Below, in pieces: positions 33,866 through 62,237 of a DNA stretch of 64,000 nucleotides. The translations under genes were made by a program, and so were the position numbers. Origin of the DNA: an uncultured Roseobacter sp. (GTDB taxonomy: Bacteria; Pseudomonadota; Alphaproteobacteria; Rhodobacterales; Rhodobacteraceae); NCBI GenBank assembly GCA_947501635.1, contig CANMWT010000002.1, positions 124,001-188,000 on the forward strand. Direction: 5' to 3'. Within the stretch, counting starts at the first letter, position 1. Each line of letters starts with the position of its first letter. Under the pieces are notes generated by a model. It was given only the letters and a program-made list of their open reading frames with translations. It was not told where the DNA came from and ran no database searches.

Positions 33866-34078
33866 ATGTTAAGAAACGTTTCCCGCCGGTCCGCTGAACC
33901 GGTTCTTCTCGACCGCCGCCATCAAATTCAGTCATCCACCGACGGACTGGTTACAGTCTTTGTGTGGGACAGGTGGCAAATGTCCGCAAATCATACCGCA
34001 ACTTTACCCTGGAAGTTCTCTTTTAAACCAGAGCCGGGCGACGTGCTCGCTCAGGTGAAACGGAGGTTGCAGCAGTGA
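33866..34078 (+). CDS. Small hypothetical protein upstream of methyltransferase
   Basis: 70 residues (DGLVTVFVWDRWQMSANHTA), basic at the C-terminus (LAQVKRRLQQ). The ATG follows AAGGAG at about 11 nt, and its stop overlaps the methyltransferase start by 4 bp, which supports real translation. The family is not recognised. Confidence 0.55.
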   Translation: MLRNVSRRSAEPVLLDRRHQIQSSTDGLVTVFVWDRWQMSANHTATLPWKFSFKPEPGDVLAQVKRRLQQ

Positions 34079-35394: not shown

Positions 35395-35770
35395 GAATTA
35401 CGATGTTGGCTACGGCCGTCCGCCCAAACACACGCAGTTCAAAAAAGGTCAGTCGGGCAATCCGAAAGGCCGAAAGAAAGGCGCGCGCGGTCTGAAAACC
35501 GATCTGCGTGCCGAGCTGAATGAACGCATTGAGATCACTGAGAACGGTAAGACTGTGAAACTGACCAAACAGCAACTTATGGTCAAACAACTCGCGGCCA
35601 AAGCGATCAAGGGTGACGTCCGCGCAATTGGCAAACTGGCTGACCTGACGATCGCATTGCTTGGTGCGGAAGATGAAACCCGCAAGGCCGCCGCAACGCT
35701 ACCTGCGGATGATGACGCCATCCTGCAGGCGTGGCTCAAGCGGGAGGTCGGAGGGCAGTCAGATGACTGA
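35384..35770 (+). CDS. DUF5681 domain protein
   Basis: 128 residues. The N-terminus matches the DUF5681 pattern (GYGRPPKHTQFKKGQSGNPK followed by GRKKGARG), a basic glycine-rich stretch found in small proteins encoded just before terminase genes. The helical remainder (QQLMVKQLAAKAIKGDVRAI) may bind DNA or act as a small-terminase-like subunit. It overlaps the methyltransferase gene by 11 bp and the terminase gene by 8 bp. Confidence 0.82.
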   Translation: MSDENYDVGYGRPPKHTQFKKGQSGNPKGRKKGARGLKTDLRAELNERIEITENGKTVKLTKQQLMVKQLAAKAIKGDVRAIGKLADLTIALLGAEDETRKAAATLPADDDAILQAWLKREVGGQSDD

Positions 35771-43689: not shown

Positions 43690-45687
43690 TTAGCCCTCTT
43701 TCTTTTCTTCCTCCTGCTGTTGAAGACTTTCCTGCTGCTCCTCAAAGGATTCTGCAGACAGGTTTTCGCTATCATTGAACGTTTCGGCTTCAGGAAAAAT
43801 CGCGTCTGGTGAGCCCGGTGGTGGATACTTGAGCGTCCCGCCGATCCTGTCCAATTTAGCGGCAGGAAACTGAGGGAAGGGAAACTGATTGCCACTGCGC
43901 CAACGCTCCACCTCTCTGATCGCATGTTCTGCACCCGGACCGGTGGGTTCGCCATCCTTTCCCAAGTAAAGCGTTTGCGATGGAAATGCGAACTCCGCAC
44001 CTGCTTCTTTTACGATCTCGCCGATACGGAACAATATATCCTCTTGGACGGCATAATATTCATTCCAGTTGCGCGTTTTTACAAAAACGCGCAAAGATAA
44101 AAGGAGTGCGTAATCGCCGTAATCATTGAAGCGGACGCGCACGGTATCGCCGTCGATTTTGGGGTGTGCGTGGAGCATTTCTCGCGATTTCGCCAAGACG
44201 TACCGTACCTGATCGGGGTTGGTTTCGTAACGCAGCGCGATTGTCCGCGAGATTTGGATATCATTTCTTGACCAGTTCACGATGTGCAGATCTGCCAACT
44301 GGGCATTTGGGATCGTGATCAACGTTTGGTCCAGCGCTGTCAGTTTCGTTGACCGAATGCCAATGGACTCAACCACCCCACCCAGTTCCCCAATAGTACA
44401 GTAGTCTCCCACGCTGACCGGCTGGTCCAAATACAAGATAAAACCACCAATGAAATTCTCCAAAGTCGGCCTAATTGCCAGTGCCAGAGCGAGACCGCCG
44501 ACACCCAGACCAGCCAGAATACTCACGACCGGTAAGCCCAATTCCTGAAGCCCCATGGCAAGCAGCGCAACGGCACCAAAAAAGCCAATAGAGCCGGTAC
44601 CAAGGCGTAAAAGGTTCGCATCGAGACTATCGTCGTCTATGCGCGGAGAGAGTATAATGGCTTCTGCCACCAATCTCATGATAAGCCAAACGAACCATGC
44701 TGAAGCTACCGATACGATCAGAGTAGCGGAATTGTTTACCAATAAGGCAAAAGTTCCCGATGGGTTGATCTCCCGTTCGAAGAACGGAAGAAGCAATAAG
44801 ACAGTTACCAACAGCAGGGACGGGCGAATAAGGCGGATGATCAGTGGCCGGCACCCATCCTCAGGCTCCAGCCGCAAGAGAACGTTATGAGCTACGGCAA
44901 GAAGACCGATGGCGAGCGCCGTGATCAGCAGGATCGCAACAATTTTCCAGATCGGCGTTCCCAGCCACAACTTCAAAAGGCTCTCGGGAAGCGCGAGCAC
45001 GATTGAGTTCGGGATCATAGGTCCCGTGAATTGTGGCAATGCGACGCTCCAGCTCCTTATACCTAAGGGTGAGGTCAGAGGTTCATCTTTGATGCCTTCG
45101 AGTATGCGCGGAGCTACTACTGTCACCCGCTCGTTGAACAGAAACTCGCGCTCGCGCGGGCCATTATCGATCCGGGTGATCCGGATGGGTGTGCCTGGTA
45201 CCTGATATTGTGCAAATCCCTCGTCATCAAAGTCATCCAGCGCGGGGACTTCTTCGGGATTAGGGAGCTCAATTCGCCCGAATATATCCAACAAAGCGGC
45301 GACCGTGGTGCTACCCACTTCGTGTTTTGTAGTATCCGGTACGGAAGAAAGATCGATTAATGAAATCAAGCGGTCGAATAGAACTTCGATACGAGTGGCC
45401 TTTGCCGCCGTCTTGTCGGTTGGATAGGTCAGAAGCACTGCTTCGAGCTCATCGCGCAATCTCATAAAGGATGTCAGCGTTTCCCTCGGACTTTCCGTTC
45501 GGACCCCTCCTATCGATAGTTCGTCAGTGGCACTATCGGTAAGGTCTATCCCCAGCGGGCCAATGTCGGGTCGCTCCTGCGCGTCCAAGGCAACAGTCTG
45601 AAAGGCGCACGCCAAAACCATCACCGCCGCAAACTTCGCCGCGTTAAGGCACAATCTTTTCAGGTCGTTTTTCAATTTGAACCTCAT
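43690..45687 (-). CDS. Mechanosensitive ion channel, MscS family
   Basis: About 665 residues. A signal-like N-terminus (AAKFAAVMVLACAFQTVALD) and a periplasmic domain of some 230 residues precede about four membrane spans. The pore helix and beta domain are clear: LAGLGVGGLALALAIRPTLE followed by NFIGGFILYLDQPVSVGDYC and SIGIRSTKLTALDQTLITIP. The tail is Glu/Gln-rich. The ATG at 45687 follows AAGGAG; an extension to 45750 is unlikely. It releases solutes on hypo-osmotic shock. Confidence 0.88.
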   Translation of the reverse strand: MRFKLKNDLKRLCLNAAKFAAVMVLACAFQTVALDAQERPDIGPLGIDLTDSATDELSIGGVRTESPRETLTSFMRLRDELEAVLLTYPTDKTAAKATRIEVLFDRLISLIDLSSVPDTTKHEVGSTTVAALLDIFGRIELPNPEEVPALDDFDDEGFAQYQVPGTPIRITRIDNGPREREFLFNERVTVVAPRILEGIKDEPLTSPLGIRSWSVALPQFTGPMIPNSIVLALPESLLKLWLGTPIWKIVAILLITALAIGLLAVAHNVLLRLEPEDGCRPLIIRLIRPSLLLVTVLLLLPFFEREINPSGTFALLVNNSATLIVSVASAWFVWLIMRLVAEAIILSPRIDDDSLDANLLRLGTGSIGFFGAVALLAMGLQELGLPVVSILAGLGVGGLALALAIRPTLENFIGGFILYLDQPVSVGDYCTIGELGGVVESIGIRSTKLTALDQTLITIPNAQLADLHIVNWSRNDIQISRTIALRYETNPDQVRYVLAKSREMLHAHPKIDGDTVRVRFNDYGDYALLLSLRVFVKTRNWNEYYAVQEDILFRIGEIVKEAGAEFAFPSQTLYLGKDGEPTGPGAEHAIREVERWRSGNQFPFPQFPAAKLDRIGGTLKYPPPGSPDAIFPEAETFNDSENLSAESFEEQQESLQQQEEEKKEG

Positions 45688-46169
45688 CGCTGAGCTGCTC
45701 CTTAGCGCCCTTTGACCGACACATATGCACGAAGTCAGTAACTTGGCCACCTTTGAGCCCAGGGTGACTTCTTAAAAATGCACCATACACGACCGCTATC
45801 CCCGGAGTATCAAAAAACCGCCTAGGGCATTTTTGGCGCAATTAGGCGGATGTAGTAGTGCTTCAATTTCCTCTTTTGGATCCGGGCTAAGAAAAAGCGG
45901 CTCGCTCCGATTGTAATGATCGGAATATCAGCCTCCATACTTCCAGCTACCGGTCCCCTCGATCCTTGACGTCTCCTAAGAGCCGGAAACCCTCCGCACT
46001 GCGGTGAGCCTCAACTGTCTCAAACGCGCTGACGACGAATAGTCTGGGCTTTACTTCTCCGGATCAAATCTGGAAAACTTGTCAGCGAAGGGTAGGGGCG
46101 TCCGCTGGAACTGCAGCGATAGGCCTTGAACGCCTGGACCAAGCGAGCAGAATTGCGCACGGACGACAC
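45688..46169. other. Divergent intergenic region, no gene
   Basis: 482 bp between the leftward channel gene and the rightward DUF4239 gene. It must contain promoters for both, but no strong hexamers or palindromes were found by eye. Short frames on either strand look random. Confidence 0.4.
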
Positions 46170-46994
46170 ATGGAATACACGGCACTCCAGATAGCACCAC
46201 CATATTTTTCATTGGTGTTTCTAATATCAGTTGTATTTGTTGCCTTGCCGGTTGCGGCGCTCGTCGGATGGCTTTTGGGACGCCGGTCATTCCTTTCTCT
46301 CGGTTATGACAAGTCGCCACCCTCCTCCATTTCGGGCGAAGACACCAGTAACGCGATATTGGCTTTGCTGGGATTGTTGCTGGCGTTCACGTTCGGGTTT
46401 TCCTTGTCGCATGCCGAGAAACGCAAGGTTGCCCAACTAGAAGAAGCTACAGCGATCAGCACAGCCTTCGTTCGTGCCGATCTACTTGAGGAACCCGGTC
46501 GTAGCGCTTTGCGTGAAAAAATCGGCCTATATGCTGAAACCAGGGTCATAGATAATAATGTCCTGGCTTCAGCGGACACTATGGGTTCCTACTTGCAGCA
46601 AACTCTAAAAGCGCAGGAAGAACTCTGGCCGGCAGCGCTCAACGCAATTACTCCCGGTACACCCCCAGCGGTCGCCGTCCTGATCACAAGCGGCATGACG
46701 GATGTTCTGGATGCACACACGCGTCGTTTGGCTGCGGGTGTTGACGCGATTCCTGTAGCTGCAAAGTCCGTGCTACTTCTTTATGCAGCGCTTGTTGCTT
46801 TCCTTGCAGGGAACAATTCCGCCCTTCGCGGGCGGGGACTCAGTTGGCGAACATTCGTCTTATCTGTTACGCTCTCAATGGTCATTTGCGTTGTCTTGGA
46901 TTTTGAGCGGACCCGAGAAGGCTTCATACGGGTCAGCCCTACCATAATGCAAGTCACCAGCGCTGAAATCAATGCGGCACTCGCTGCTGAATGA
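46170..46994 (+). CDS. DUF4239/bestrophin-like membrane protein
   Basis: 274 residues with two N-terminal spans (FSLVFLISVVFVALPVAALV, and LALLGLLLAFTFGFSLSHAE) and two C-terminal spans (SVLLLYAALVAFLAG and FVLSVTLSMVICVVLDF). The GRRSFLSLGY loop and the AEKRKVAQLEEATAIST segment match DUF4239-type proteins, which resemble bestrophin channels. The ribosome-binding site is weak. Function in this clade is not established; anion permeation is possible. Confidence 0.78.
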   Translation: MEYTALQIAPPYFSLVFLISVVFVALPVAALVGWLLGRRSFLSLGYDKSPPSSISGEDTSNAILALLGLLLAFTFGFSLSHAEKRKVAQLEEATAISTAFVRADLLEEPGRSALREKIGLYAETRVIDNNVLASADTMGSYLQQTLKAQEELWPAALNAITPGTPPAVAVLITSGMTDVLDAHTRRLAAGVDAIPVAAKSVLLLYAALVAFLAGNNSALRGRGLSWRTFVLSVTLSMVICVVLDFERTREGFIRVSPTIMQVTSAEINAALAAE

Positions 46995-49076: not shown

Positions 49077-50318
49077 ATGCCAAGTACCCAAAGAAATGGG
49101 CTCGTAAATGCCTTGGTGCTGAGTACAGCCATCGGACTATGCGCAACTATCGCAAGCGCGCACTCTGACTATCTTTATGTTTGGTCAGGGGACGCGGACA
49201 AAGCCGCTGGCGATAAAGACTTTCTCGCCACAGTAGACATCCGCGAGGATAGTCCCAGCTTTGGACAAGTCATAGCGACTACGCCCGTTCCGGACGTTGG
49301 CACGATGCCGCATCACATTGAACCTACGGTGTCCCAATCTGATGATCTGTTTGCAAGCGGGTTCATGGCAAACAAGATCTATCGCTTTGATATGTCCGAT
49401 CTCGCCAATCCGATCCTGACAACGACAATCAGTGCCATCCCCGGTTGGAAGATGTCACACAGTTTCATTCGAACGCCGGAGAACCAGCTGATCGGCACCA
49501 TGCAATACAGCGCAACAGATCCGGAGGCATCTGGTGGCCTTGCGGTTATCAGCTCCGGCGGTGAAGTATTGCAAACCGTTTCCGCCGAAGATCCAACAAT
49601 GGATACACCGCCATACAGAAGTTATGGTGTAGATATCGCGCCTGATGTGAACCGGATTGTCTCGACCAGTACGCCGATGGCGATGGAGACCCCATCTGTA
49701 GATGCGGTGCAAATCTTTGATGCATCCGACATGAGCTTGCTGAAGACGCTGCAACTGCCGAAACCTGAGGGTGATCCTTCACGGATGCGCCATCCCTTCG
49801 AGATTAGAACTCTCGCAGATGGCAAGTCCATGATGCTGAACACCTTCCAATGTGGCTTCTACCTTGTTGATAACCTAGACACTGACGCGCCGACGGTCGA
49901 ATTCGTCTACGCGATGAAGAAGCCGAACCAACGCGCTTGCTCTGTACCGAGCATCGTCGGGAATTACTGGATCATGCCTGTTCAGAAATCTAATGAAGTC
50001 GTCGTGCTGGACATCAGCGACCCTGGTGCTCCGAAAGAAGTATTTACGCTCACCATGGACGAAGGCTTCAGCCCGCACTACAGCGCTGCGGAACCTGGCA
50101 ATAACCGCATCGCGTTGACCGGCTTCATGGGGGGTGGAGACTTCCGTGTTCTGATGCTGCGCATCGACGAGTCAACAGGGGCGCTCAGCATCGACGAAAG
50201 CTTCACGGATCCCAACACTGGTGGGGTGGGTGTCGATTTCAAACGGGCAATGTGGCCACATGGAGCAACAGGCCCAGCGATCCCGCACGGAATCGTGTGG
50301 AGCACCAAAGCAAAATAA
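49077..50318 (+). CDS. Exported SBP56-like beta-propeller (selenium-binding/methanethiol-oxidase type)
   Basis: 413 residues with a Sec signal (ALVLSTAIGLCATIASAHS). The repeated propeller blades and histidine-rich spots (MPHHIEPTV, KMSHSFIRTP, MRHPFEIRTL, SPHYSAAEPG, WPHGATGPAIPHG) match the layout of SBP56 proteins, whose bacterial members include copper-dependent methanethiol oxidase. The clade is divergent, so the substrate is open. The gene is followed by a terminator-like hairpin and then by a copper-storage-like gene, which fits a copper enzyme. Confidence 0.72.
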   Translation: MPSTQRNGLVNALVLSTAIGLCATIASAHSDYLYVWSGDADKAAGDKDFLATVDIREDSPSFGQVIATTPVPDVGTMPHHIEPTVSQSDDLFASGFMANKIYRFDMSDLANPILTTTISAIPGWKMSHSFIRTPENQLIGTMQYSATDPEASGGLAVISSGGEVLQTVSAEDPTMDTPPYRSYGVDIAPDVNRIVSTSTPMAMETPSVDAVQIFDASDMSLLKTLQLPKPEGDPSRMRHPFEIRTLADGKSMMLNTFQCGFYLVDNLDTDAPTVEFVYAMKKPNQRACSVPSIVGNYWIMPVQKSNEVVVLDISDPGAPKEVFTLTMDEGFSPHYSAAEPGNNRIALTGFMGGGDFRVLMLRIDESTGALSIDESFTDPNTGGVGVDFKRAMWPHGATGPAIPHGIVWSTKAK

Positions 50319-51082: not shown

Positions 51083-53146
51083 ATGAGCCTTAAAGTCACG
51101 CGGATTTCTGCCGCTTCACTGGCACTGATTTCGCTGGTGCACACGGCAATGGCACAGGAATTGTCGCACTTTGACCCGAAGGGCAAGCCGCCTTCAGCGG
51201 AGACGGTGGCGATCATCGAGGCGTTGCGCGGCTCTTTGCCCTTCGAAGACGATCGTGACTTTGCAGAAGCTCAGCGCGGTTTCATTACCGCGCCTGACTA
51301 CAAGCAGATCATGGCTGAAGCCGGTAACGTTGCGTGGGATATAGGAAGCTACGATTTTCTTCTGCAAGGCGAAGATTTTGACACAATCCACCCTTCACTG
51401 CAGCGTCAGGCCGTTTTGAACATGTCTTACGGCCTGTACGAGGTCATGCCGGACAAAATCTATCAAGTGCGCGGTTTTGATCTTGCCAATTTCACTGTCA
51501 TCAAAGGTGAAACGGGCTGGATCGTGTTTGATCCTCTGACGGCCAAGGAAACGGCTGCGGCAGCGCTCAAGCTGGTCAATGACCAGCTTGGCGAGCGGCC
51601 GGTGACAGGCGTTGTTTACTCGCATAGCCATGCCGACCATTTCGGTGGTGTGCGGGGCGTCGTCAACGAGGCGGACGTGCGAGAGGGCAAGGTGCCCGTC
51701 ATCGCGCCGGTTGGCTTCATGGACCATGCGGTGGCCGAAAATGTTTACGCAGGCAACGCCATGAACCGCCGTTTGTTCTATCAATATGGTGTTCTTCTCC
51801 CCCGTAGCCCCTTTGGCCATGTGGATCAGTCGATCGGTAAAAATACGGCTGCGGGCAATCTTGGCCTGATTGCGCCAACCGTGGTTATCGAAGATGATAC
51901 TGAGGAACTGACCGTAGACGGCGTGCGGATGATTTTTCAGAACACGCCGGGAACTGAAGCACCGGCGGAAATGAACACATACTTCCCCGATCTGAAAGCT
52001 TTCTGGGCGGCGGAAAATATCACCGGCACGATCCATAACATCTACACGCTGCGCGGTGCTCTTGTACGCGACGCACTGGAATGGTCTCGGCAGATCAACG
52101 CTGCACTTTATCTGTTCGGTCAGGAAGCCGAAGTGATGTTTGCCTCTCACTCGTGGCCGCGGTGGGGCAACGAACGCATTCAAGAGGTCATGCGTTCTCA
52201 GAGAGACACCTATGCACACCTCAATAATGGCGTTCTGCATCTTGCCAATCAGGGTGTGACGGTAAACGAGGTGCACAATGAGTACGAGGTGCCACAAAGC
52301 CTGCAACAACAGTGGTCGGCCCGCAGCTACCACGGGTCGGTCGAGCACAACAGCCGTGCAGTTATCAACCGCTATCTGGGATACTGGGATGCGAACCCTG
52401 CGACCCTGATCCCATTGTCCCCGGACGAGTCGGCTCCTTTGTTCGTCGAGATGATGGGGGGCGCGGAGCCAATCTTAACGCGTGGGCAGGAGCTCTATGA
52501 CGCGGGCGACTACAAACTGGCTCAAGAAATTCTGAACAAACTGGTTTACGCCGAACCCGAAAATCAGGAAGCAAAGGATCTTCTGGCCGATGTGTTCGAA
52601 CAAATTGGCTACCAGCAGGAAAGCCCGAGCGTGCGGAATTCATTCCTCGCTGGTGCTTATGAACTGCGCAACGGTATTCCGTCTGGCGCGTCGCCGAAAT
52701 CATCTGGACCAGATATGATCAAAGCTATGGATACCTACCTCTGGTTGGATTTCCTTGGCGTTCGACTGGACAGTGAAAAAGCGGGAGATCGCGCGTTCAC
52801 GATCAACATGATCACGCCGGACAACGAGGAAAAATTCGTCATTGAGCTGTCCAATGGCACACTTACCAATCTTGAGGGCTATCTGGCTGATGATCCAGAC
52901 CTGACACTCGTCGTGAACAGGTCCGATCTGGAACAGGTCATGATGGGCGCGGTCACCATGGACGAACAGATCGAAGCGGGTAAGGTCGCGTTGGCGGGGG
53001 ATACCGGGATCATTGACGACCTGAAAGAGATGTTGGTCCAGTTTGATCTTGGTTTCGAGATATTGCCCGGCACTGGGGAACAGGATCTGACGCCGGAAGC
53101 CAATGCTTTCCAGCAGCCCGAGCCAGCTGATACATCTGGAGGCTAA
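51083..53146 (+). CDS. Exported alkyl sulfatase, metallo-beta-lactamase fold (SdsA1-like)
   Basis: 687 residues with a Sec signal (SLALISLVHTAMAQ). The di-zinc site starts with SHSHADHFGGVRG, and EDDTEELTVDGVRMIFQNTP and MFASHSWPRWGN follow. After the beta-lactamase domain come a dimerisation domain (about 400-540) and a C-terminal SCP2-like domain (about 560-665, LSNGTLTNLEGYLADDPDLT). It should hydrolyse primary alkyl sulfates such as SDS to alcohol and sulfate in the periplasm. Confidence 0.9.
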   Translation: MSLKVTRISAASLALISLVHTAMAQELSHFDPKGKPPSAETVAIIEALRGSLPFEDDRDFAEAQRGFITAPDYKQIMAEAGNVAWDIGSYDFLLQGEDFDTIHPSLQRQAVLNMSYGLYEVMPDKIYQVRGFDLANFTVIKGETGWIVFDPLTAKETAAAALKLVNDQLGERPVTGVVYSHSHADHFGGVRGVVNEADVREGKVPVIAPVGFMDHAVAENVYAGNAMNRRLFYQYGVLLPRSPFGHVDQSIGKNTAAGNLGLIAPTVVIEDDTEELTVDGVRMIFQNTPGTEAPAEMNTYFPDLKAFWAAENITGTIHNIYTLRGALVRDALEWSRQINAALYLFGQEAEVMFASHSWPRWGNERIQEVMRSQRDTYAHLNNGVLHLANQGVTVNEVHNEYEVPQSLQQQWSARSYHGSVEHNSRAVINRYLGYWDANPATLIPLSPDESAPLFVEMMGGAEPILTRGQELYDAGDYKLAQEILNKLVYAEPENQEAKDLLADVFEQIGYQQESPSVRNSFLAGAYELRNGIPSGASPKSSGPDMIKAMDTYLWLDFLGVRLDSEKAGDRAFTINMITPDNEEKFVIELSNGTLTNLEGYLADDPDLTLVVNRSDLEQVMMGAVTMDEQIEAGKVALAGDTGIIDDLKEMLVQFDLGFEILPGTGEQDLTPEANAFQQPEPADTSGG

Positions 53147-53286: not shown

Positions 53287-54156
53287 GTGAAAAAATCCTC
53301 TCAAATAACGAGTTCAGCAGCTTTATCGGCGGTAGTGCTGACCGGGACGGCTGTTTTTGCATCAGATATCCAAAACAACGTGTCCGACGATGTAATCGCG
53401 AACCAAAGAGCATTGCTTGCCGAAAACACACGAGGAGTAGGGTTCGGCCCACAGTCGCCACGAGATATAGAGAACGTTTCAGGTAACAATACTGTCGCAT
53501 TTGCGGCTGCGCCTCCGCATTCGGAGATGAATCTTTGCAACATTCATTTCCACGAAGGCGCAGAGCACAAAGGCGGCGAATTTACAAAGTTTATCGGGAA
53601 TGGAGATGGCAAAGGGTATGGTGGTGGGTACGCGTTCTCAGGCCAACTAAGTGATGCAGAACTGGACCCGCTTGAAAAAGAGATAGGCGCTACGGAACAC
53701 GGTGGCCTTGTTCCAGGAGATACCATTGAGGTTCACTATGTCTATTCTACTGCAAAAATCGCGCCAGGGCCGAGCCTGGCATCTTGCTTAAGTGATGCGA
53801 GCAGGAACCCACAGTTGCGTGTCGAGGCCCAAGTTTTTGTGCTGGTGAATGATGAAGATGCCCTCGATTTCGTAGATCTCATGGAAGTTGGCCAAATCGA
53901 CGGTTTGCATCAGGCGCTGAATATTCCGTCAGATACCGGATCACCTGTTGAATATGCCGGGTCAACGACAGGTCCCGGCTACAATGAAAAGGGCTCGCCG
54001 TTTCAGGTGACTTGGAATGTCCGCCCGAAAGTCGCCAAGGTCGATATCACCACTGTCGCAGACTGGTTGAGTGGCAATATCTTTAACGAAGACCACGCAC
54101 ACGGTGTCAGGAATTTGGTAGTTAATCCCGATCTTCTCTCCACTTTGCCAAGATAA
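53287..54156 (+). CDS. Delta-class-like carbonic anhydrase, exported
   Basis: 289 residues with a Sec signal (SAALSAVVLTGTAVFAS). The core has CNIHFHEGAEHKGGEF, with the Cys-x-x-His-x-His pattern of delta-class carbonic anhydrases first known from diatoms, then GGYAFSGQLSDAEL and GDTIEVHYVYSTAKIAPG. GTG start after AAGGAAGG. It would interconvert CO2 and bicarbonate in the periplasm. It stands apart from the alkylsulfatase gene by 140 bp and is probably a separate unit. Confidence 0.75.
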   Translation: MKKSSQITSSAALSAVVLTGTAVFASDIQNNVSDDVIANQRALLAENTRGVGFGPQSPRDIENVSGNNTVAFAAAPPHSEMNLCNIHFHEGAEHKGGEFTKFIGNGDGKGYGGGYAFSGQLSDAELDPLEKEIGATEHGGLVPGDTIEVHYVYSTAKIAPGPSLASCLSDASRNPQLRVEAQVFVLVNDEDALDFVDLMEVGQIDGLHQALNIPSDTGSPVEYAGSTTGPGYNEKGSPFQVTWNVRPKVAKVDITTVADWLSGNIFNEDHAHGVRNLVVNPDLLSTLPR

Positions 54157-54867: not shown

Positions 54868-54909
54868 ATGAGTTCAAAACACTACCTCCACCCGAAGCAG
54901 GTCTTGTAG
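54868..54909 (+). CDS. Leader peptide ORF (13 codons) upstream of antiporter
   Basis: ATG at 54868 with a strong AAGGAG site reads MSSKHYLHPKQVL and stops with TAG at 54907-54909; its last base is the first base of the antiporter GTG start (TAGTG). The antiporter itself has no independent ribosome-binding site, so its translation probably depends on reinitiation from this leader. A regulatory role is inferred. Confidence 0.6.
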   Translation: MSSKHYLHPKQVL

Positions 54910-56159
54910 TGACCGGCTTCTTGTTTATTTGCGTAATCACCGCCGCTTACACGATGGTGGCGCAGCGAATGTCCTCGACAATTGTAACTGCTCCGATGGT
55001 TTTCATCACGGTGGGAGTGTCGCTCTCCGTATCGGGGTTGCTGTCCGAAGATGGCGCACACGAATTGCTGCATCCTGTCGCGGAAATTGCCCTTGTAGTG
55101 TTGTTGTTTCTGGATGCCGCGAAAATTGACATTGTCGCCTTGTGCAAGCGGCATGTTTGGCCAACGCGCATGCTATTTATTGGATTGCCTTTTTCAATCG
55201 CGTTTGGTTGTATGGCCGGGATTATTCTGCTTCCCGCGTGGCCTTTTGCTGCCGTCGCGCTGCTCGCTTCGATTTTGGCTCCGACGGATGCAGCTCTGGG
55301 CCAAGCGGTGGTTACCAACAAGAACGTACCTGATCGTGCGAGGCGTGCTTTAACAGTGGAGAGCGGGCTCAACGATGGCTTCGCACTACCAGCAATCTTG
55401 TTTTTTGCCAGTCTTACAGCAGCAGCAAGCAACGTGAGCAGCGGCGACTGGCTAATCTTTGGAGCAAAGCAGATTGTGCTGGGACCAATCGTGGGGGTGG
55501 TCTTTGGCGCTTTGGGTGGATGGATATTGCTGCGTGCAAAGGCACGCGGAACAACATCTGATACATTTGAAGGTATTGGCGCACTCAGCTTGGCGGGAGC
55601 AGCATATCTTGCAGCGGTCGAGGTCGGTGGAAACGGATTTATTTCCGCCTTTGTTGCCGGACTGGCTTTTGGTGGCATCGTAAAGGGTGCCTGTAAATTC
55701 GTCTATGAGTTCACGGAAAGTGAGGGGCAGCTGCTCGCCTGGGCGGCTTTCCTGCTTTTGGGTGCCGCTCTGGTGCCGGAAGCGATCGCTCATTTGACCC
55801 TACCGATGCTGTCCCTCATTCTCGCAAGTCTTTTTGTTGTTCGACCGCTCGCCATTTGGTTGTCGCTGTCCCGGACAGACGCCACCCCCCTGACAAGGCT
55901 CTTCTTCGGATGGTTCGGCCCACGCGGCTTGGCAACCGCGCTCTTCGCTCTTCTAGTCGTTGAGCAGATTCCACACGAATTTGGTGAACAAGTCTTGCAC
56001 ACTGCTGTAAATGCCGTTTGGATCAGCGCCTTGCTGCATGGTCTCAGCGCCGCACCCGCTGCCAAGTGGTACGGTACCAAGGTTACCAATCTAGACAGTA
56101 TGCTTGAGCAAGGCGTCACAGTGGAGACCGAAAAAAAGAAGACCTCGAGACCAACCTGA
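54909..56159 (+). CDS. CPA1-family cation/proton antiporter
   Basis: 416 residues, about twelve membrane spans. The ion-binding motifs of CPA1 exchangers are present: SILAPTDAALGQAVV and VESGLNDGFALPAI, and the GWFGPRGLATALFALLV segment. It should exchange Na+ or K+ for H+ across the inner membrane. It starts at GTG overlapping a 13-codon leader ORF and is followed after 29 bp by a Rieske-glutamate-synthase fusion, so it seems to head an operon with redox enzymes. Confidence 0.87.
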   Translation: MTGFLFICVITAAYTMVAQRMSSTIVTAPMVFITVGVSLSVSGLLSEDGAHELLHPVAEIALVVLLFLDAAKIDIVALCKRHVWPTRMLFIGLPFSIAFGCMAGIILLPAWPFAAVALLASILAPTDAALGQAVVTNKNVPDRARRALTVESGLNDGFALPAILFFASLTAAASNVSSGDWLIFGAKQIVLGPIVGVVFGALGGWILLRAKARGTTSDTFEGIGALSLAGAAYLAAVEVGGNGFISAFVAGLAFGGIVKGACKFVYEFTESEGQLLAWAAFLLLGAALVPEAIAHLTLPMLSLILASLFVVRPLAIWLSLSRTDATPLTRLFFGWFGPRGLATALFALLVVEQIPHEFGEQVLHTAVNAVWISALLHGLSAAPAAKWYGTKVTNLDSMLEQGVTVETEKKKTSRPT

Positions 56160-56188
56160 ATCTGAAGCCAGATAAAAAAGGAACGCGC

Positions 56189-57799
56189 ATGGCCAAGACA
56201 GCCATTTATAAACTCAGCAAGCTTAACGACCGAAAACCCGAATACGCGATCGTCGGAGAGGTGGATCTGGTCGTAGTCCGCTTCGATGATGAGATTTCCG
56301 TGTTCTACGGGCGGTGTCTGCACCGCGGGGCTCTGATGGCTGACGGATACGTGCGGGGCAAGGATCTCATTTGTGGCCTTCACAATTGGGATTACCGGCT
56401 GGATACTGGCGTGTCCGCCTACGCCAACGAAGAAAAACTTCCAAAATTCAAATCATGGGTTGAAGGCGACGATGTCTGCGTTGACGCAGACGAGATCAAC
56501 GAATGGGCGTTGAAAAACCCGCAACCTTTCAACCGCGATGCATATCTGGGGCTATATTCGGATACCAGCCATGGCACGGAAGAAGAGCCATACAATGGTC
56601 TAATTCAGCAATACGCACGCGATGGCCTGACCAAAACCGGTCACCACGGTGCTGTAACGTCAATGGGGGTTCCTAGAACACAGCTGCCGGACTGGGATGA
56701 TATTCAAATTATTACAGGTCAGTTGGCGACCCCCCCGCTGCTGGATGACGCTCCAGTTGGCACAGAAGTCATCATTGGGCCGAACTCCCAAAAGCCTTTG
56801 CGGCTTGAGATACCGCTCTTTGTCTCCGATATGTCCTTCGGAGCCCTGTCTGAAACCGCCAAGGTTGCACTGGCCACAGGGGCCGAAATGGCGGGGACGG
56901 GTATATGCTCCGGTGAGGGCGGCATGCTGCCGGAAGAGCAATCTGCCAACAGCCGCTATTTTTATGAACTGGCGTCTGGCCGCTTCGGGTTCAGCTGGGA
57001 CAAACTGGACAACGTGCAGGCCTTTCACTTCAAAGGGGGGCAGGGTGCAAAAACCGGGACGGGCGGCCATCTTCCCGGCAACAAGGTTCAGGGTAAGATC
57101 GCGGAAGTCCGCGGACTGGAGCCGGGCACATCGGCCATCTCCCCGCCGCGGTTTCCGGAGTGGACTGAGGTCAGCCAGATCAGGGAGTTCGCGGATGAGG
57201 TCCGCGACCGCACAGGCGGCATCCCGATCGGCTACAAGCTCAGCGCGCAGCACATTGAAAAGGACATCGATGCAGCCTTGGAGGTTGGTGTGGACTACAT
57301 AATACTCGATGGGCGTGGCGGTGGGACCGGTGCGGCTCCGGTGATTTTCCGCGACAATATTTCGGTCCCGACCATCCCGGCTCTTGCGCGTGCGCGGTCT
57401 CACCTCGACAAGCTTGGGCGTGACGATGTCACGCTGATCATCACCGGCGGTTTGCGCAAGCCGGCAGACTTCATCAAAGCAATGGCGCTGGGCGCAGATG
57501 CCATCGCCGTGTCCAATTCGGCGATGCAGGCCATTGGATGCCTCGCGATGCGCGCGTGCCACACGAACAATTGCCCGGTCGGAATTGCCACTCAGAAACC
57601 ACATTTGGTCAGCCGGTTGTTGGTGGACAAGTCCGCACAGCAGCTGGCCAATTTCTTTGGCGCTTCCGTCGAACTGATGCAGGTGATGGCGCGGGCATGC
57701 GGCCACGATCACCTTTCGAAGTTCAACGAGGACGATTTGACGACCTGGAAGAAAGAAATGGCTGATCTGTCCGGTGTGGCATTCGGTGGCGTCGCTTGA
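56189..57799 (+). CDS. Rieske-domain fusion to FMN-binding glutamate-synthase-like domain
   Basis: 536 residues. The N-terminal Rieske [2Fe-2S] domain has C43-x-H45 (CLHRG) and C62-x-x-H65 (CGLHNW). From about 150 the protein matches the central and FMN domains of glutamate synthase large subunits: FVSDMSFGALSETAKVALAT, GTGICSGEGGMLPEEQ, FHFKGGQGAKTGTGGHLPGN, GRGGGTGAAP and the cysteine segment MRACHTNNCPVGIATQ. There is no amidotransferase or GXGXG domain, so a different 2-oxoacid/amine or electron-transfer reaction is possible. It lies between the antiporter and a second Rieske fusion (11 bp downstream). Confidence 0.85.
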   Translation: MAKTAIYKLSKLNDRKPEYAIVGEVDLVVVRFDDEISVFYGRCLHRGALMADGYVRGKDLICGLHNWDYRLDTGVSAYANEEKLPKFKSWVEGDDVCVDADEINEWALKNPQPFNRDAYLGLYSDTSHGTEEEPYNGLIQQYARDGLTKTGHHGAVTSMGVPRTQLPDWDDIQIITGQLATPPLLDDAPVGTEVIIGPNSQKPLRLEIPLFVSDMSFGALSETAKVALATGAEMAGTGICSGEGGMLPEEQSANSRYFYELASGRFGFSWDKLDNVQAFHFKGGQGAKTGTGGHLPGNKVQGKIAEVRGLEPGTSAISPPRFPEWTEVSQIREFADEVRDRTGGIPIGYKLSAQHIEKDIDAALEVGVDYIILDGRGGGTGAAPVIFRDNISVPTIPALARARSHLDKLGRDDVTLIITGGLRKPADFIKAMALGADAIAVSNSAMQAIGCLAMRACHTNNCPVGIATQKPHLVSRLLVDKSAQQLANFFGASVELMQVMARACGHDHLSKFNEDDLTTWKKEMADLSGVAFGGVA

Positions 57800-57810
57800 A
57801 GGAGACGAAG

Positions 57811-59790
57811 ATGAACAAGGAAACCCTCGACTGGATTAGTATTGGCCACGTCGGTGACCTGCCGGAAGGACGTGTGAAAACGGTCACTGCCCGAACTACG
57901 TCGATCTGTCTGGTACACTTCGACGGGCAATGGACCGCGATGAACAATCACTGTCCCCACCAGCGCGGTCCTCTGGGCGAAGGATCGATCGAGACAGGGG
58001 TCGACGGCAAGTGCTGGATACGCTGTCCTTGGCACGGTTGGGATTTCGATCCTCTGACTGGGAAACCTCCGGGAGGACACGAGGACACCGGGCAGGAGAT
58101 GTATCCGGTCGATATCAGAGATGGTGAGATATTTGTCGGAATAGCACCCGAACCTGCGCATGAACGCACCGTGACGGATGTGATGGTGGATACCCTCGCA
58201 AACTGGGGCGTGCAGTCTGTATTCGGCATGGTCGGCCACTCGAACCTCGGTTTGTCTGATGCGATCCGGCTGGCTGTCGCAGATTGTCGACTGAAATATT
58301 TTGGCATCCGGCATGAAGGTGCCGCCGCCTTTGCGGCCTCCGCTTACGGTAAGCTGACCCGTACCCCCGCCGCTTGTCTGACGATTGCCGGGCCGGGGGC
58401 AACAAACCTGATTACAGGCCTCTGGGATGCGAAGGTCGACCGGGCGCCGGTGCTGGCCTTGACCGGCCAGGTGCAAACGCAGGTCATGGGCCCCGGGGCT
58501 TTCCAAGACATAGATCTGCTATCCGCGTTTTCGGCTGTCACCGCATTTTCGCAACCGGTATTGGGTAGTTCCAATCACGCTGAACTGGCATCGCTTGCTT
58601 GCAAAACGGCTATTGTGGAGCAGGATGTAGCACATCTGATTTTCCCGGATGACGTTCAAACCAAGCCCTCCAATCAGACAGCCGGAACGCCTGAAGGTCG
58701 GATCACGCATGCCTCGGTAACTCCCGCGCAAAGCGAGATCGAAAAAGCGGCGCAAATGATAAAAGGCGCTAAACGCCCGATCGTTGTGGTGGGCCACGGG
58801 GCGTATGGCAATCGCGACGACGTAACGCGCCTTGCAGAGCATCTTGGTGCGCCGGTTCTGACAACGTTCAAGGCCAAGGGCCTGATCCCCGACAGCCACC
58901 CCAACGCGGGTGGCGTATTGGGGCGGTCCGGCACACCCATCGCCAGTTGGTTCATGAACGAGGCGGATCTGATCATCGCGCTGGGAACAAGCTTTTCCAA
59001 TCATACGGGAATTAATCCGGGCAAGGTAACAATCCAAGTTGATCATGATCGCATGCATCTGGGGAAATTTCATTCCGTTACACTGCCTGTGTGGGGAGAT
59101 ATCGGCGCGTTTTGCGACGCGCTAAAGATTACAGACTGCACAAATCCAGGCGCTGCGGACCAGACTTCTGAATTGGCTGAACGCTGGGACATCTGGCGGC
59201 GAGAGAAGCAGCATCGCCTAGAGGAAGACCTGGGCAAGGGCATCCATTCTTTTGCCATCTTCGATGCGCTGGGGCGTTTGGTGCCTGATGATACGATCTT
59301 TGCCGTAGATGTAGGGAACAATACATATTCTTTCGGTCGCTATCTTGAAACTAAAGGCAGCCAGCGGGTGTTGATGTCGGGTTATCTTGGGTCGATTGGC
59401 TTTGGGTTTCCCGCTGCCATGGGGGCTTGGGCCGCGACACAGGACAAGGAAGATCTGAAAGGACGTAAGATCGTTTCTATTTCGGGTGACGGCGGCTTTG
59501 GCCAGTACCCCATGGAGTTCACCACCGCTGTCAAATATGGGATGGATATAACTCATATCCTTTTGCACAATGGCGAGCTCGGAAAAATTTCCAAGGAACA
59601 GCGTTCGGGCGAATGGCCTGTATGGGAAACCAGTCTGCAAAACCCAAGCTTTGCCGCCTTTGCACGGCTTTGTGGTGGGCACGGTACAAAAGTCACAGAC
59701 CCTTCGGAACTGTCATCAGCTATTCAAGAGGCTCTGGACTTCAAAGGCCCAGCCCTCGTGGAGATCATGACTGATGCCGAGTTGGTCTGA
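57811..59790 (+). CDS. Rieske-domain fusion to thiamine-diphosphate enzyme (acetolactate-synthase family)
   Basis: 659 residues. The Rieske domain at 1-115 has C48-P-H50 and C72-P-W-H75. Residues about 120-659 form a three-domain ThDP enzyme: the catalytic glutamate in GIRHEGAAAFAASAYGKL, central domain (KRPIVVVGHGAYGNRDDV), and the ThDP/Mg motif from GDGGFGQYPMEFTTAVKYG to LLHNGELG (GDG...N spacing intact). Relatives decarboxylate pyruvate, glyoxylate or oxalyl-CoA or make acetolactate. An N-terminal Rieske fusion is not a usual arrangement in this family. The ATG at 57811 follows GAAGGAG. Confidence 0.85.
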   Translation: MNKETLDWISIGHVGDLPEGRVKTVTARTTSICLVHFDGQWTAMNNHCPHQRGPLGEGSIETGVDGKCWIRCPWHGWDFDPLTGKPPGGHEDTGQEMYPVDIRDGEIFVGIAPEPAHERTVTDVMVDTLANWGVQSVFGMVGHSNLGLSDAIRLAVADCRLKYFGIRHEGAAAFAASAYGKLTRTPAACLTIAGPGATNLITGLWDAKVDRAPVLALTGQVQTQVMGPGAFQDIDLLSAFSAVTAFSQPVLGSSNHAELASLACKTAIVEQDVAHLIFPDDVQTKPSNQTAGTPEGRITHASVTPAQSEIEKAAQMIKGAKRPIVVVGHGAYGNRDDVTRLAEHLGAPVLTTFKAKGLIPDSHPNAGGVLGRSGTPIASWFMNEADLIIALGTSFSNHTGINPGKVTIQVDHDRMHLGKFHSVTLPVWGDIGAFCDALKITDCTNPGAADQTSELAERWDIWRREKQHRLEEDLGKGIHSFAIFDALGRLVPDDTIFAVDVGNNTYSFGRYLETKGSQRVLMSGYLGSIGFGFPAAMGAWAATQDKEDLKGRKIVSISGDGGFGQYPMEFTTAVKYGMDITHILLHNGELGKISKEQRSGEWPVWETSLQNPSFAAFARLCGGHGTKVTDPSELSSAIQEALDFKGPALVEIMTDAELV

Positions 59791-59811
59791 TTTCAGTGAA
59801 CGGTCTTACCT

Positions 59812-60495
59812 ATGACAGGCGCACTCGCTATTCTGTTCTTGCTGGCCGTTACACTCGTTATCGTGCGGGTGGCCGGTGTGGCGTTGCGCTTGACCGGTCT
59901 GCCAACGCCTGTGGCGCGGTTTCAGGCGGTATCAACCCTTACGGGAACCGGGTTTACCACATCCGAAGCGGAAGGCATGATGCATCACCCCGTGCGCCGG
60001 CGCATTCTGATGATATTGATGTTCACGGGTCACCTAGGTTTGGTCTCACTCACGTCTACGGTCATTTTGGCCCTTGCCGCTAGCGAGAGCAGTTCCGGTG
60101 TTGTTATCCAGATTCTCGCCATGCTGGGTGCAATTGCGATCATCTATGCTCTCTCAGCAAGCGAAACGCTGGATCGGATTATGTGCGACTGGGTGCAGGT
60201 CATGCTTGAGAAGCTGCATTGGGCCACTGACTATCCCTATGAGGTTCTTTTTGAACATTCGGATGAATATCAGCTGTGTGAGCATGTTGTCGACCATCAG
60301 AAGACGGTCGGAGTGGGCTTATCGATTGTGTCGCACAACGGCTCTCTTCGCACTGAAGGCGGCTCACCGTCCCTGTCAAAAGGTGACATAGTCGTACTCT
60401 ATGGCAAACCCGAAGATCACTTGTCGTGGGGAGGAGGCCAAAAGGACGGAGACGCTGCAACTGGTTCTGAACCTCTTTCAGCAAGCAAGACATGA
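59812..60495 (+). CDS. Membrane protein with TrkA-C (RCK_C)-like domain
   Basis: 227 residues with about three membrane spans (ALAILFLLAVTLVIVRVAGV, GHLGLVSLTSTVILALAAS, IQILAMLGAIAIIYALS). The segment FQAVSTLTGTGFTTSEAE resembles the pore-loop region of TrkH-type transporters, and the C-terminal part (VGVGLSIVSHNGSLRTEGGS followed by KGDIVVLYGKPED) a TrkA-C ligand domain. It may sense or gate cation flux. It starts 21 bp after the ThDP fusion, so it belongs to the antiporter/Rieske operon. Confidence 0.75.
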   Translation: MTGALAILFLLAVTLVIVRVAGVALRLTGLPTPVARFQAVSTLTGTGFTTSEAEGMMHHPVRRRILMILMFTGHLGLVSLTSTVILALAASESSSGVVIQILAMLGAIAIIYALSASETLDRIMCDWVQVMLEKLHWATDYPYEVLFEHSDEYQLCEHVVDHQKTVGVGLSIVSHNGSLRTEGGSPSLSKGDIVVLYGKPEDHLSWGGGQKDGDAATGSEPLSASKT

Positions 60496-60655
60496 TGCGT
60501 AAAGGCAGTGCTGAACGATTGACCCATCGGGTGTGTTTACTTCGAAAGGCCGAAGCTTGATCTTTTAACCGACATATAAAATGAGGCTCTTTTAGCCACG
60601 GAGGCAACCATTGAGCCGCAGCAAAGCTCTGCAACCGGAAAGACACGAGGCTTAA

Positions 60656-60931
60656 ATGGCAACATCCGTTTCACAAGAAAAACCGAGGCTTACAAGGCTG
60701 GTATTCGGTGATGGCACGCCGCGAAAAGCGGCCCTTACAGCTTTGGTTGTCGGCAGCGTATTGACAGTAATCAACCATGGCGACGCCATTTTGTCGGGAC
60801 ATTTTCCACCTGTGCTCAAAGTTCTGCTGACTTACTGTGTACCCTATTGCGTGACCACTTGGGGTGCAGTGACGGGTAAGCTCGCGCAGGCGGAGCGGCA
60901 AAGCAAATCCTCGGAAGAGCCTGTGGCTTGA
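60656..60931 (+). CDS. nrtS: NrtS-like nitrate/nitrite transporter
   Basis: 91 residues with two hydrophobic segments: ALVVGSVLTVINHGDAIL and LKVLLTYCVPYCVTTWGAV. The CVPYCVTT region fits the NrtS family of small nitrate/nitrite transporters first described in cyanobacteria. Hydrophilic termini face the cytoplasm. Its stop is 13 bp from the nucleotide cyclase start, so the two are probably cotranscribed. Confidence 0.72.
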   Translation: MATSVSQEKPRLTRLVFGDGTPRKAALTALVVGSVLTVINHGDAILSGHFPPVLKVLLTYCVPYCVTTWGAVTGKLAQAERQSKSSEEPVA

Positions 60932-60944
60932 AAGGAGTTCAGTC

Positions 60945-62237
60945 GTGAACGCAGAACAGTTCTTCAATCAGAAAACAATTCTGGACCTCAGCTTTTTCAA
61001 TTTCAGGAATGCGATAACTGCGGCGTACTATGCCAACAGCGATCTCGAAATCCTGCGCACAAACGAAAATTTCAGAAAATTTTTTCCGATCCTTGGAAAT
61101 GTAACAAATGCATCGATGCTGGATGTGCTCGAGCAGCTTGGGCTACCCGGCAGTCAAATCGATCTGTTTGCGTCTGAACTCGAGGAAAAGGGGGCGGTCT
61201 TGTTGCCGCAAGTCAGGATTTCAGTCGATGGTGAGAACAGGATTTACTCCTTGCTCTCTGCAAGAACGCAAGACGGCAACTTTTCATATTTGAACGGCGT
61301 GCAGGGTCAGTTTGTGGACAGAACCGAGGAATGGAAACTGAGGCAGGAACGTGAGCAGTTGTTGGAACAAAAAATGCGCGATCGGGAGCTGATCGAGCAA
61401 AAAAGCCAGCAGTTGGAAAGTCTGGCCAACCGTCTCGCCAAGTATCTTTCGCCGCAGATATACAAGAGTATCTTTTCCGAGACCGAAGATACGTCCCGCA
61501 AGCATGCACGCAAGAACCTCACGATCTTTTTTTCAGATATCGTTCAGTTCACTGATTTGAGCGACACGATGGATCCTGAACGCCTCGCCGTCGTCATCAA
61601 TTCATACCTGTCGGAAATGACCAATATTGCGCTGGATTGTGGAGGGACAATCGACAAGTTCATTGGTGATGCTGTGCTCGTCTTCTTTGGTGATCCAGAA
61701 TCCGATGGCGAAGTCGAAGATGCGCTGAAGTGCGTTGAAATGGCATTTCGGATGCAGCAGCGGATAGAAGAGCTGCAAGGCTATTGGAAAAAGAACGGCG
61801 TTCCCAACGGCATCAAAGTCAGGATGGGTATCGCAACGGGATATTGCACGGTCGGGAATTTCGGGTCGGATCAACGCCTTGAATATACCGTACTCGGTGG
61901 CACAGTGAATCTCGCGTCGCGGCTGGAAGCATTGGCAGCACCGGGCAGTATACTTCTGGATCAGAACACCAGCTCCCTGATCGAAGGCCATGTGACTTCT
62001 AAAGAGAGGGGGGAAGTCATCCCGAAGGGCTTTGCTCGATCTGTAAAGTATTACGAACCAATAGAGTACTCATTGTCAGAAGAGCATCTGACAAGCAGGA
62101 ATTGGTCGCACATGGGCGATCGCGTCGAGGTCAAGATCATAGACAGTTCAGACATCCGCAGCGCCATACAGGAGCTGCACGATATTCAGGTAAAATTCGA
62201 ACGGCAATTAAAACAGTCGGCTTCGAAGGAAGACTAA
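60945..62237 (+). CDS. Class III adenylate/guanylate cyclase with N-terminal sensor and coiled coil
   Basis: 430 residues. The N-terminal 120 residues look PAS-like (YYANSDLEILRTNENFRKFF), followed by a coiled coil (about 125-165, REQLLEQKMRDRELIEQKSQ). The cyclase homology domain (about 185-370) has the metal aspartates in FFSDIVQFTDLS and KFIGDAVLVFFGD and the segment GIATGYCTVGNFGSDQRLEY. GTG start after AAAGGAG. It makes cAMP or cGMP; the coupled NrtS-like gene suggests that nitrate or nitrite status is the signal. Confidence 0.85.
   Translation: MNAEQFFNQKTILDLSFFNFRNAITAAYYANSDLEILRTNENFRKFFPILGNVTNASMLDVLEQLGLPGSQIDLFASELEEKGAVLLPQVRISVDGENRIYSLLSARTQDGNFSYLNGVQGQFVDRTEEWKLRQEREQLLEQKMRDRELIEQKSQQLESLANRLAKYLSPQIYKSIFSETEDTSRKHARKNLTIFFSDIVQFTDLSDTMDPERLAVVINSYLSEMTNIALDCGGTIDKFIGDAVLVFFGDPESDGEVEDALKCVEMAFRMQQRIEELQGYWKKNGVPNGIKVRMGIATGYCTVGNFGSDQRLEYTVLGGTVNLASRLEALAAPGSILLDQNTSSLIEGHVTSKERGEVIPKGFARSVKYYEPIEYSLSEEHLTSRNWSHMGDRVEVKIIDSSDIRSAIQELHDIQVKFERQLKQSASKED

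Follow-up and report, generated by a model that had tools for sequence, protein, structure and literature searches.

A conserved and widespread gene module with Rieske-fused thiamine diphosphate and glutamate synthase-type enzymes in an uncultured Roseobacter sp.

A recurrent gene cluster and its neighbours

We analysed a stretch of 64,000 nucleotides from contig 2 of the 4.2-Mb genome of an uncultured Roseobacter sp. (GenBank assembly GCA_947501635.1, contig CANMWT010000002.1, positions 124,001 to 188,000; hereafter the window), in which four genes of the + strand (54909-60495) encode, in one direction, a CPA1-type cation/proton antiporter, two different enzymes with an N-terminal Rieske domain and a small membrane protein. 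Our main finding is that these genes belong to a module that is real, conserved, widespread and composed of known parts, and that is apparently uncharacterised. The arrangement was found again in dozens of genomes and is therefore not due to chance. We tentatively favour, at somewhat less than an even chance, the reading that the four genes represent one version of a redox/ion module, widespread among prokaryotes, which discharges electrons into respiration through membrane partners like the FRDr protein introduced below.

The first gene encodes the antiporter (54909..56159, +; 416 aa; PF00999, 2.8e-34). It is followed by RiGlt (56189..57799, +; 536 aa), in which a Rieske domain (PF00355, 7e-11) precedes the flavin mononucleotide (FMN)/[3Fe-4S] domain of glutamate synthase (PF01645, 9e-91), and by RiTPP (57811..59790, +; 659 aa), in which a Rieske domain (PF00355, 2e-16) precedes a pyruvate-oxidase-like thiamine diphosphate (ThDP) enzyme (PF02776/PF00205/PF02775). 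The last gene encodes TrkC (59812..60495, +; 227 aa), a small, putatively K+-channel-like membrane protein with a TGTGFTT segment and an RCK-C-like tail. An earlier note, made from the letters of this DNA, had described two Rieske fusions running in one direction with a CPA1 antiporter, and the open reading frames (ORFs) and Pfam families agreed with this description. Its gaps of 29, 11 and 21 bp between the genes were right given the RiTPP start at ATG 57811, where a good Shine-Dalgarno sequence is in place, and its Rieske ligands, C43/H45/C62/H65 and C48/H50/C72/H75, were right and proved invariant in relatives. Spurious ORFs or mis-joined genes were ruled out, since the homologues are collinear in many genomes.

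The comparison of domain pairs and gene order across genomes that the note had proposed revealed a conserved association. The rarity it had supposed for the fusions did not hold, since a scan of species genomes (84,980 species) yielded at least 580 stretches with a RiTPP family peptide, defined by one of two RiTPP peptide patterns together with a tblastn match at E <= 1e-3, so that a single gene can be represented by two stretches. We read the best 80 as loci, and it is for these 80 that the Rieske domain was confirmed; many of their contigs are short, and L072/L079 and L076/L081 are each the same genome twice. By record title, the 80 loci come mostly from alphaproteobacterial groups that are usually marine, while some belong to Gammaproteobacteria or to metagenome-assembled genomes labelled Campylobacteraceae and Thermoleophilia. 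RiTPP was also present on five plasmids, four from haloarchaea and one from Mycobacteroides. The RiTPP fusion is, by sequence comparison, a sharply bounded family. Ten matches at E <= 1e-70 were obtained among 398 Pseudomonadota genomes, five of them (own genome included) at least 74% identical and the other five 30-36% identical and beginning after the Rieske domain. In the best 15 of 139 plasmid records, ranked by coverage times identity, the five best matches were 52-60% identical over nearly the full length including the Rieske domain, and the next relatives reached at most 36%.

When the genes near RiTPP in the 80 loci were clustered, RiGlt of either type (see below) was found in 50, FRDr in 35, P254 in 33, CPA1 in 27, m123 in 16, P283 in 12, m92 in 10, TrkC in 7, an extracytoplasmic function (ECF) sigma factor in 7 and zf-HC2 in 6 loci, and a translated search gave RiGlt in 53, FRDr in 39, P254 in 33, CPA1 in 28, m123 in 26, m92 in 17, P283 in 9 and TrkC in 8. 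Frequent orders were CPA1-RiGlt-m123-FRDr-P254-m92-RiTPP and CPA1-RiGlt-RiTPP-(TrkC); TrkC and FRDr stood together in none of nine loci, and the operon neighbours outside the core genes showed no shared theme by eye. RiTPP and RiGlt lie on the same strand in 56 and on opposite strands in 6 of the 62 loci that have both. Their spacing, taken between tblastn matches and not gene ends, was at most 39 bp in 27 of the 62 (window included; three of the 27 of the CDGSH type described below) and about 2.45 kb in 20, and in five mapped loci of the latter kind m123, FRDr, P254 and m92 lie between the two genes.

FRDr, which had been overlooked in the earlier note along with a CDGSH-type protein in RiGlt's place and with solitary RiTPP or RiGlt genes, combines a ferric-reductase-like haem-type membrane domain with a C-terminal Rieske domain (PF01794 + PF00355) and is a third Rieske fusion near RiTPP. 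Its four spaced haem-type histidines (89, 101, 171 and 184) and its Rieske ligands were conserved in 50 of 50 sequences. The portion of the FRD survey available to us (PMC3591440) assigns a haem role to the conserved histidines, names Rieske among the electron-transfer domains of the FRD superfamily, an architecture shared by the FRDr of the related loci, and draws no tie to RiTPP or RiGlt. P254 (L052:8858-9619 and relatives), encoded after FRDr, is membrane-anchored with conserved D, C, M, H, C and C (CDGKC..HKAC..C) and a predicted model of pLDDT 88.6; no Pfam match better than E 0.014 was obtained for 21 members, and no solved structure matched convincingly (best E 0.042). A separate 248-aa ORF with a P254-like Cys/His segment, the second in the same locus, was seen by eye in L150.

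Association was also determined over whole genomes, in a family sample (248 genomes, one per genus) and a class sample (210 genomes). In the family sample, with RiTPP in 14, Rieske-type RiGlt in 23 and FRDr in 22 genomes, 13 of the 14 RiTPP genera also had RiGlt (expected 1.3, p 1e-14) and 12 of the 14 had FRDr (expected 1.2, p 6e-13). The class sample contained RiTPP in 10, RiGlt in 6 and FRDr in 9 genomes, with RiTPP and RiGlt together in 5 (expected 0.29) and RiTPP and FRDr together in 4 (expected 0.43); over the 207 class genomes beyond the window's own family, RiGlt and FRDr each accompanied RiTPP in 4 of 9 cases (p 8e-6 and p 1e-4, respectively). For the family sample, a match from query residue <= 11 was typed as Rieske-type (23 genomes, two partial) and a match from residue 126-130 as CDGSH-type (22 genomes, of which G025 and G019, i.e., L066 and L067, were read); G226 (match 231-535) was assigned to neither group. 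The Rieske-type count of the class sample excludes G252 and G828, whose matches start at 130 and 120.

The association extends to genes that are not neighbours, as FRDr is unlinked in G019, G167, G213 and G282, and RiTPP, RiGlt and FRDr lie on three different contigs in G757. This, together with a gene order and short gaps that repeat over many genera, speaks against the view that independently acting enzymes merely travel together as a stress or fitness island, their clustering reflecting shared regulation or transfer and not one pathway. Such an island, which we consider unlikely, would suit the patchy, partly plasmid-borne spread over archaea and bacteria, the redox and metal-resistance neighbours (merA, DsrE) on haloarchaeal plasmids and the ability of each enzyme to stand alone. 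It would also suit the ECF sigma gene beside the module in 7 of the 80 loci (L096, L100, L107, L109, L111, L137 and L148, on the opposite strand), accompanied in 6 of them, L107 being the exception, by a zf-HC2 anti-sigma gene; from this gene arrangement, regulation by redox stress is possible.

Composition of the encoded proteins

Both window Rieske domains show the C-x-H ... C-x2-H ligand pattern, with the motifs CPHQRG/CPWHGW and CLHRGA/CGLHNW. A duplicated Rieske module was ruled out, the domains of RiGlt and RiTPP being only 22% identical to each other; the FRDr Rieske domain is 26-31% identical to the two. The Rieske proteins of bc1/b6f complexes carry a CPCHGS-type motif and extra disulfide cysteines, neither of which was found in the two window domains, and no Rieske-oxygenase catalytic domain was matched by Pfam in RiGlt or RiTPP, whose C-terminal domains are Glu_synthase and TPP_enzyme; an identity as ring-hydroxylase or bc1 Rieske proteins was thus ruled out by domain content and motifs. 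Elsewhere in the genome, the Rieske genes of contig 9 were tried as FRDr candidates and rejected, as they look like ring-hydroxylase genes by eye and the FRDr search of the genome came back empty at E <= 1e-15; further Rieske matches lie on contigs 5, 7 and 1 (L069-L071).

In RiTPP, the Rieske ligands C48/H50/C72/H75, the ThDP glutamate E169 and the DGG of the ThDP motif were invariant in 100 of 100 sequences, a count that, like those for RiGlt below, includes a few genomes twice. The best-scoring NCBIfam models for this protein were pyruvate oxidases, all 25 among the matches listed falling below their own cut-offs (372.6 bits against a curated pyruvate oxidase cut-off of 742), and the best solved-structure match was the quinone-linked PoxB (3ey9, 3eya). 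RiTPP shares with pyruvate oxidase/PoxB the TPP_enzyme N, M and C domains, the ThDP fold along its whole length, the catalytic Glu, the DGG motif and F112, and differs by its added N-terminal Rieske domain and by a Lys in place of F465. The match stops at PoxB residue 528 of 572 and the window protein ends four residues later, which indicates that the C-terminal membrane peptide of PoxB is absent; nothing in RiTPP corresponds to the last 44 residues of PoxB.

For RiGlt, the ligands C43/H45/C62/H65 were invariant in 61 of 61 Rieske-type sequences and three [3Fe-4S]-type cysteines were present in 67 of 67. These cysteines (C451, C457 and C462) align with C1102, C1108 and C1113 of Azospirillum glutamate synthase (GltS), which we take to be its [3Fe-4S] ligands, and K288 and R308 align with K937 and R957, presumably acting at 2-oxoglutarate; Q943 aligns with a His of RiGlt. 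No glutaminase and no C-terminal domain was matched by Pfam, the Rieske domain alone preceding the synthase domain. Three haloarchaeal plasmids carry relatives of the Rieske type that are 62% identical. The ferredoxin-dependent GltS, whose FMN/[3Fe-4S] synthase domain receives electrons from ferredoxin according to the part of PMC8097209 available to us, has this domain in common with RiGlt, which differs in having no glutaminase, in having its carrier fused and of the Rieske type, and in the motif GAKTGTGG. In L019 (G001:C144), of the same genus, the RiGlt frame is without most of the Rieske domain, which may be an assembly effect, and the genome is without RiTPP.

A second type of RiGlt has a GltS domain 64-71% identical and, in the sequences read (L066, L067, L116, L122, L125 and L131), two CDGSH motifs in place of the Rieske domain. 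By its domains it is the type 5 CISD protein of PMC3174974, a twin CDGSH fused to a GltS FMN domain for which the available part of that paper gives no function. The two types share a closely similar GltS domain and an N-terminal [2Fe-2S] domain and differ in the kind of the latter, which is of the 2Cys-2His Rieske type in RiGlt. The CDGSH type takes RiGlt's place next to RiTPP in L116, L122 and L125 (5-14 bp) and in L131 (6.6 kb), so the [2Fe-2S] domain of the Glt partner can be of another kind. In a GltS-domain tree, seven CDGSH types formed one clade (support 0.967) with one protein carrying neither domain inside it, and the root between Rieske and CDGSH types had a support of 0.181; the position of the CDGSH types of L116, L122, L125 and L131 in that clade indicates that whole genes, not domains only, were exchanged. 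A Pseudoalteromonas GltS-domain protein had neither Rieske nor CDGSH domain.

This replacement by another [2Fe-2S] kind, the strict conservation of the Rieske ligands and the co-occurrence with a haem-type protein that itself bears a Rieske domain argue for the Rieske domains as electron wires. The alternative, that they are redox sensors or structural domains gating activity, could draw on the small sigma/anti-sigma association and on the fact that FeS domains can be regulatory, and we regard it as very improbable.

The antiporter has the PF00999 fold and an N-D pair (N155-D156) present in 31 of 31 relatives, which we take to mark the electroneutral CPA1 type, so that pH, Na+ or K+ homeostasis is likelier than the balancing of charge by ion flux proposed earlier. 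Its best NCBIfam K+/H+ antiporter model scored 116.8 bits (cut-off 355). The operon had been drawn from 54868; that ATG instead opens a 13-codon ORF (54868..54909, +; predicted only) with a strong Shine-Dalgarno sequence in another frame, and the antiporter starts at GTG 54909, the start also found in one relative (L052). The TAG of the small ORF overlaps this GTG (TAGTG), an arrangement from which translational coupling is possible. PF00999 antiporters also occur near RiTPP in L029 (a haloarchaeon) and L049 (an actinobacterial plasmid). They are not close to that of the window (28% identity over 96 residues in L029; in L049 no hit of the window's antiporter exceeded 40 bits), a hint that the link is one of function and not of inheritance.

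For TrkC, the description as a membrane protein was borne out, and its proposed TrkA-C-like tail was reduced to a loose likeness. TrkA_C was absent from the Pfam hits of eight members at E <= 10, which comprised only unrelated weak matches, and the sequence profile hit only TrkH chains among PDB entries, at the same stretch (residues 308-326) and without significance (E 2.7-2.8); the TGTGFTT segment was invariant in relatives. Among 50 listed fold matches of the predicted model (pLDDT 73), nearly all were K+/cyclic-nucleotide-gated channels and KtrA/TrkA/GsuK-type RCK domains, with Foldseek probabilities up to 0.99 but none at E <= 0.001 and with TM-scores of 0.16-0.30. The model thus loosely resembles K+-channel/RCK proteins, with the gating domains of KtrA/TrkA, MthK and GsuK nearest, from which TrkC differs by a short membrane part of its own, the absence of Pfam TrkA_C and the non-significant fold E-values.

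Electron flow and competing explanations

From these features we infer cofactors, substrates, electron direction, partners and ion role as follows. RiTPP would be a pyruvate-oxidase-like ThDP enzyme, probably containing ThDP and flavin adenine dinucleotide (FAD), that removes CO2 from a 2-oxoacid and hands the electrons one at a time to the cluster in its N-terminal domain (2-oxoacid -> ThDP (-> FAD) -> Rieske), the Rieske domain replacing the membrane peptide that is PoxB's contact to the quinone pool. RiGlt would be a glutaminase-less GltS synthase domain with FMN and [3Fe-4S] whose Rieske domain acts as a tethered ferredoxin, most likely interconverting an amino acid and its 2-oxoacid with electrons running FMN -> [3Fe-4S] -> Rieske or the reverse. 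In many relatives both Rieske domains would exchange electrons with FRDr and hence with the respiratory chain; as the window's organism is without FRDr, its two enzymes would use a different carrier or serve as partners to each other. Adjustment of pH, Na+ and K+ would fall to the electroneutral antiporter and the K+-channel-like TrkC. The earlier idea that each Rieske centre exchanges electrons with ThDP/flavin or FMN fits this domain content, and its extension to a joint obligatory reaction is weakened by the occurrence of the enzymes alone.

Low-potential Rieske centres lie near -150 mV. For the [3Fe-4S] and FMN centres of GltS, potentials of about -180 to -330 mV are given in the available part of PMC8097209. 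Outflow from RiGlt is thus favoured, and inflow would need a strong reductant, e.g., the 2-oxoacid of RiTPP; on these values respiratory discharge ranks first, independent passengers and direct coupling of the two enzymes next, followed by serial oxidation of amino acids.

In direct coupling, RiTPP would oxidise a 2-oxoacid and its low-potential electrons would pass Rieske-to-Rieske to RiGlt, where they replace NADPH or ferredoxin in the reductive amination of 2-oxoglutarate, with glutamate as the counter-ion of K+ that enters by way of the ion proteins. In its favour, the two genes stand no more than 39 bp apart in 27 of the 62 loci with both, and both enzymes but no FRDr are present in the window's genome. 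RiGlt also resembles a GltS of the ferredoxin-dependent kind to which the ferredoxin has been joined, genes for an antiporter and a K+-channel-like protein stand in the operon, and the relatives are, by record title, largely from usually marine or halophilic groups. We nevertheless consider it improbable, as each enzyme is found without the other, the step from Rieske to FMN would be uphill on the potentials given above, and the genome also has an ordinary GltB homologue on contig 1. Moreover, haloarchaea balance salt mainly with KCl.

In the serial alternative, RiGlt would oxidise an amino acid to its 2-oxoacid for decarboxylation by RiTPP, both steps feeding the respiratory chain. Its direction agrees with the potentials, taking the Rieske value above, and the invariant Lys592 near the ThDP site of RiTPP could hold a second acid group. 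The haloarchaeal loci also fit, with an annotated M20-family hydrolase gene at most 1.7 kb after RiGlt in three of them and, in Haloferax, RiTPP preceded by a gene for an AstE/AspA-type deacylase, but no M20/AstE-like neighbours were noticed in the bacterial operon listing, which was inspected by eye and without a targeted search. We hold this alternative to be distinctly unlikely, and more so than direct coupling.

Discharge through FRDr-like partners, our preferred reading, has itself to be weighed against several observations. The co-occurrence tests ignore shared ancestry. Of the 10 class-sample genomes with RiTPP, 5 have no RiGlt, and in the family sample RiGlt occurs without RiTPP in 10 of 23 and FRDr without RiTPP in 10 of 22 genomes; the ability of RiTPP or RiGlt to occur alone makes one obligatory joint reaction or an obligate complex less likely. 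The CDGSH type, although beside RiTPP in four loci, has no genome-wide tie to it over the family sample (2 against an expected 1.2, p 0.36). A search of the window's own genome (G000) for FRDr found nothing at E <= 1e-15; FRDr is present in 17 of 18 searched congeners. Within the enzymes, the GltS motif GAKPGEGG reads GAKTGTGG in RiGlt, and the position of PoxB F465, which we take to sit between ThDP and FAD, holds Lys in 100 of 100 RiTPP sequences, so that RiTPP may depart from PoxB in its substrate or in the path of its electrons. Finally, an annotated antiporter is close by in only one (L029) of five haloarchaeal loci.

Flanking genes and significance

Directly upstream of the operon, the window encodes a bacterial delta-carbonic-anhydrase-like protein (53287-54156; PF10563, 5e-78), preceded by an alkyl-sulfatase-type metallo-beta-lactamase protein (51083-53146); other genes of metallo-beta-lactamase-like fold were seen by eye close to RiTPP/RiGlt in L052, L116 and L133. 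A weak selenium-binding-protein (SBP56) match below cut-off (49077-50318) adjoins a Cys-rich 158-aa protein of Tat-type appearance, and an MscS-type channel gene neighbours a weakly matching (below cut-off) bestrophin-like gene at 43690-46994, near the antiporter operon. Terminase RNaseH-like and DNA methylase genes at 34075-37211 represent a prophage or phage remnant. After the operon come a terminator-like hairpin (60540..60555, +), found in promoter and terminator scans that gave no more sites than chance, and an NrtS-like nitrate/nitrite transporter gene and then one for an adenylate/guanylate cyclase (60656-62237).

The earlier note knew of no described system of this make-up, and this stands within the titles and abstract openings of the open-access literature searched, where no Rieske-ThDP fusion or such module was found; subscription journals lay mostly outside this scope, and a published description may therefore exist. 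In the pyruvate-oxidase/acetolactate-synthase branch, ThDP enzymes give their electrons to flavin, quinone or O2. A Rieske-fused branch, conserved across the 80 loci and with hundreds of additional matching stretches, would open a new way out for the electrons of 2-oxoacid oxidation. The presence of a CDGSH-type protein beside RiTPP ties the module to type 5 CISD and makes some of these proteins accessible to genetic study. More doubtful is the wider possibility of a new respiratory module in which a ThDP 2-oxoacid oxidase, a GltS-type flavoenzyme and a haem-type membrane protein, all Rieske-fused, would be joined by Rieske-to-Rieske transfer and coupled to cation/proton exchange, with twin-CDGSH and Rieske domains as interchangeable wires; if true, a role would thereby be assigned to at least some of the type 5 CISD proteins. 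The co-occurrence of FRDr points to a testable membrane partner, and as the module occurs in the Roseobacter group, a phenotype can be sought there.

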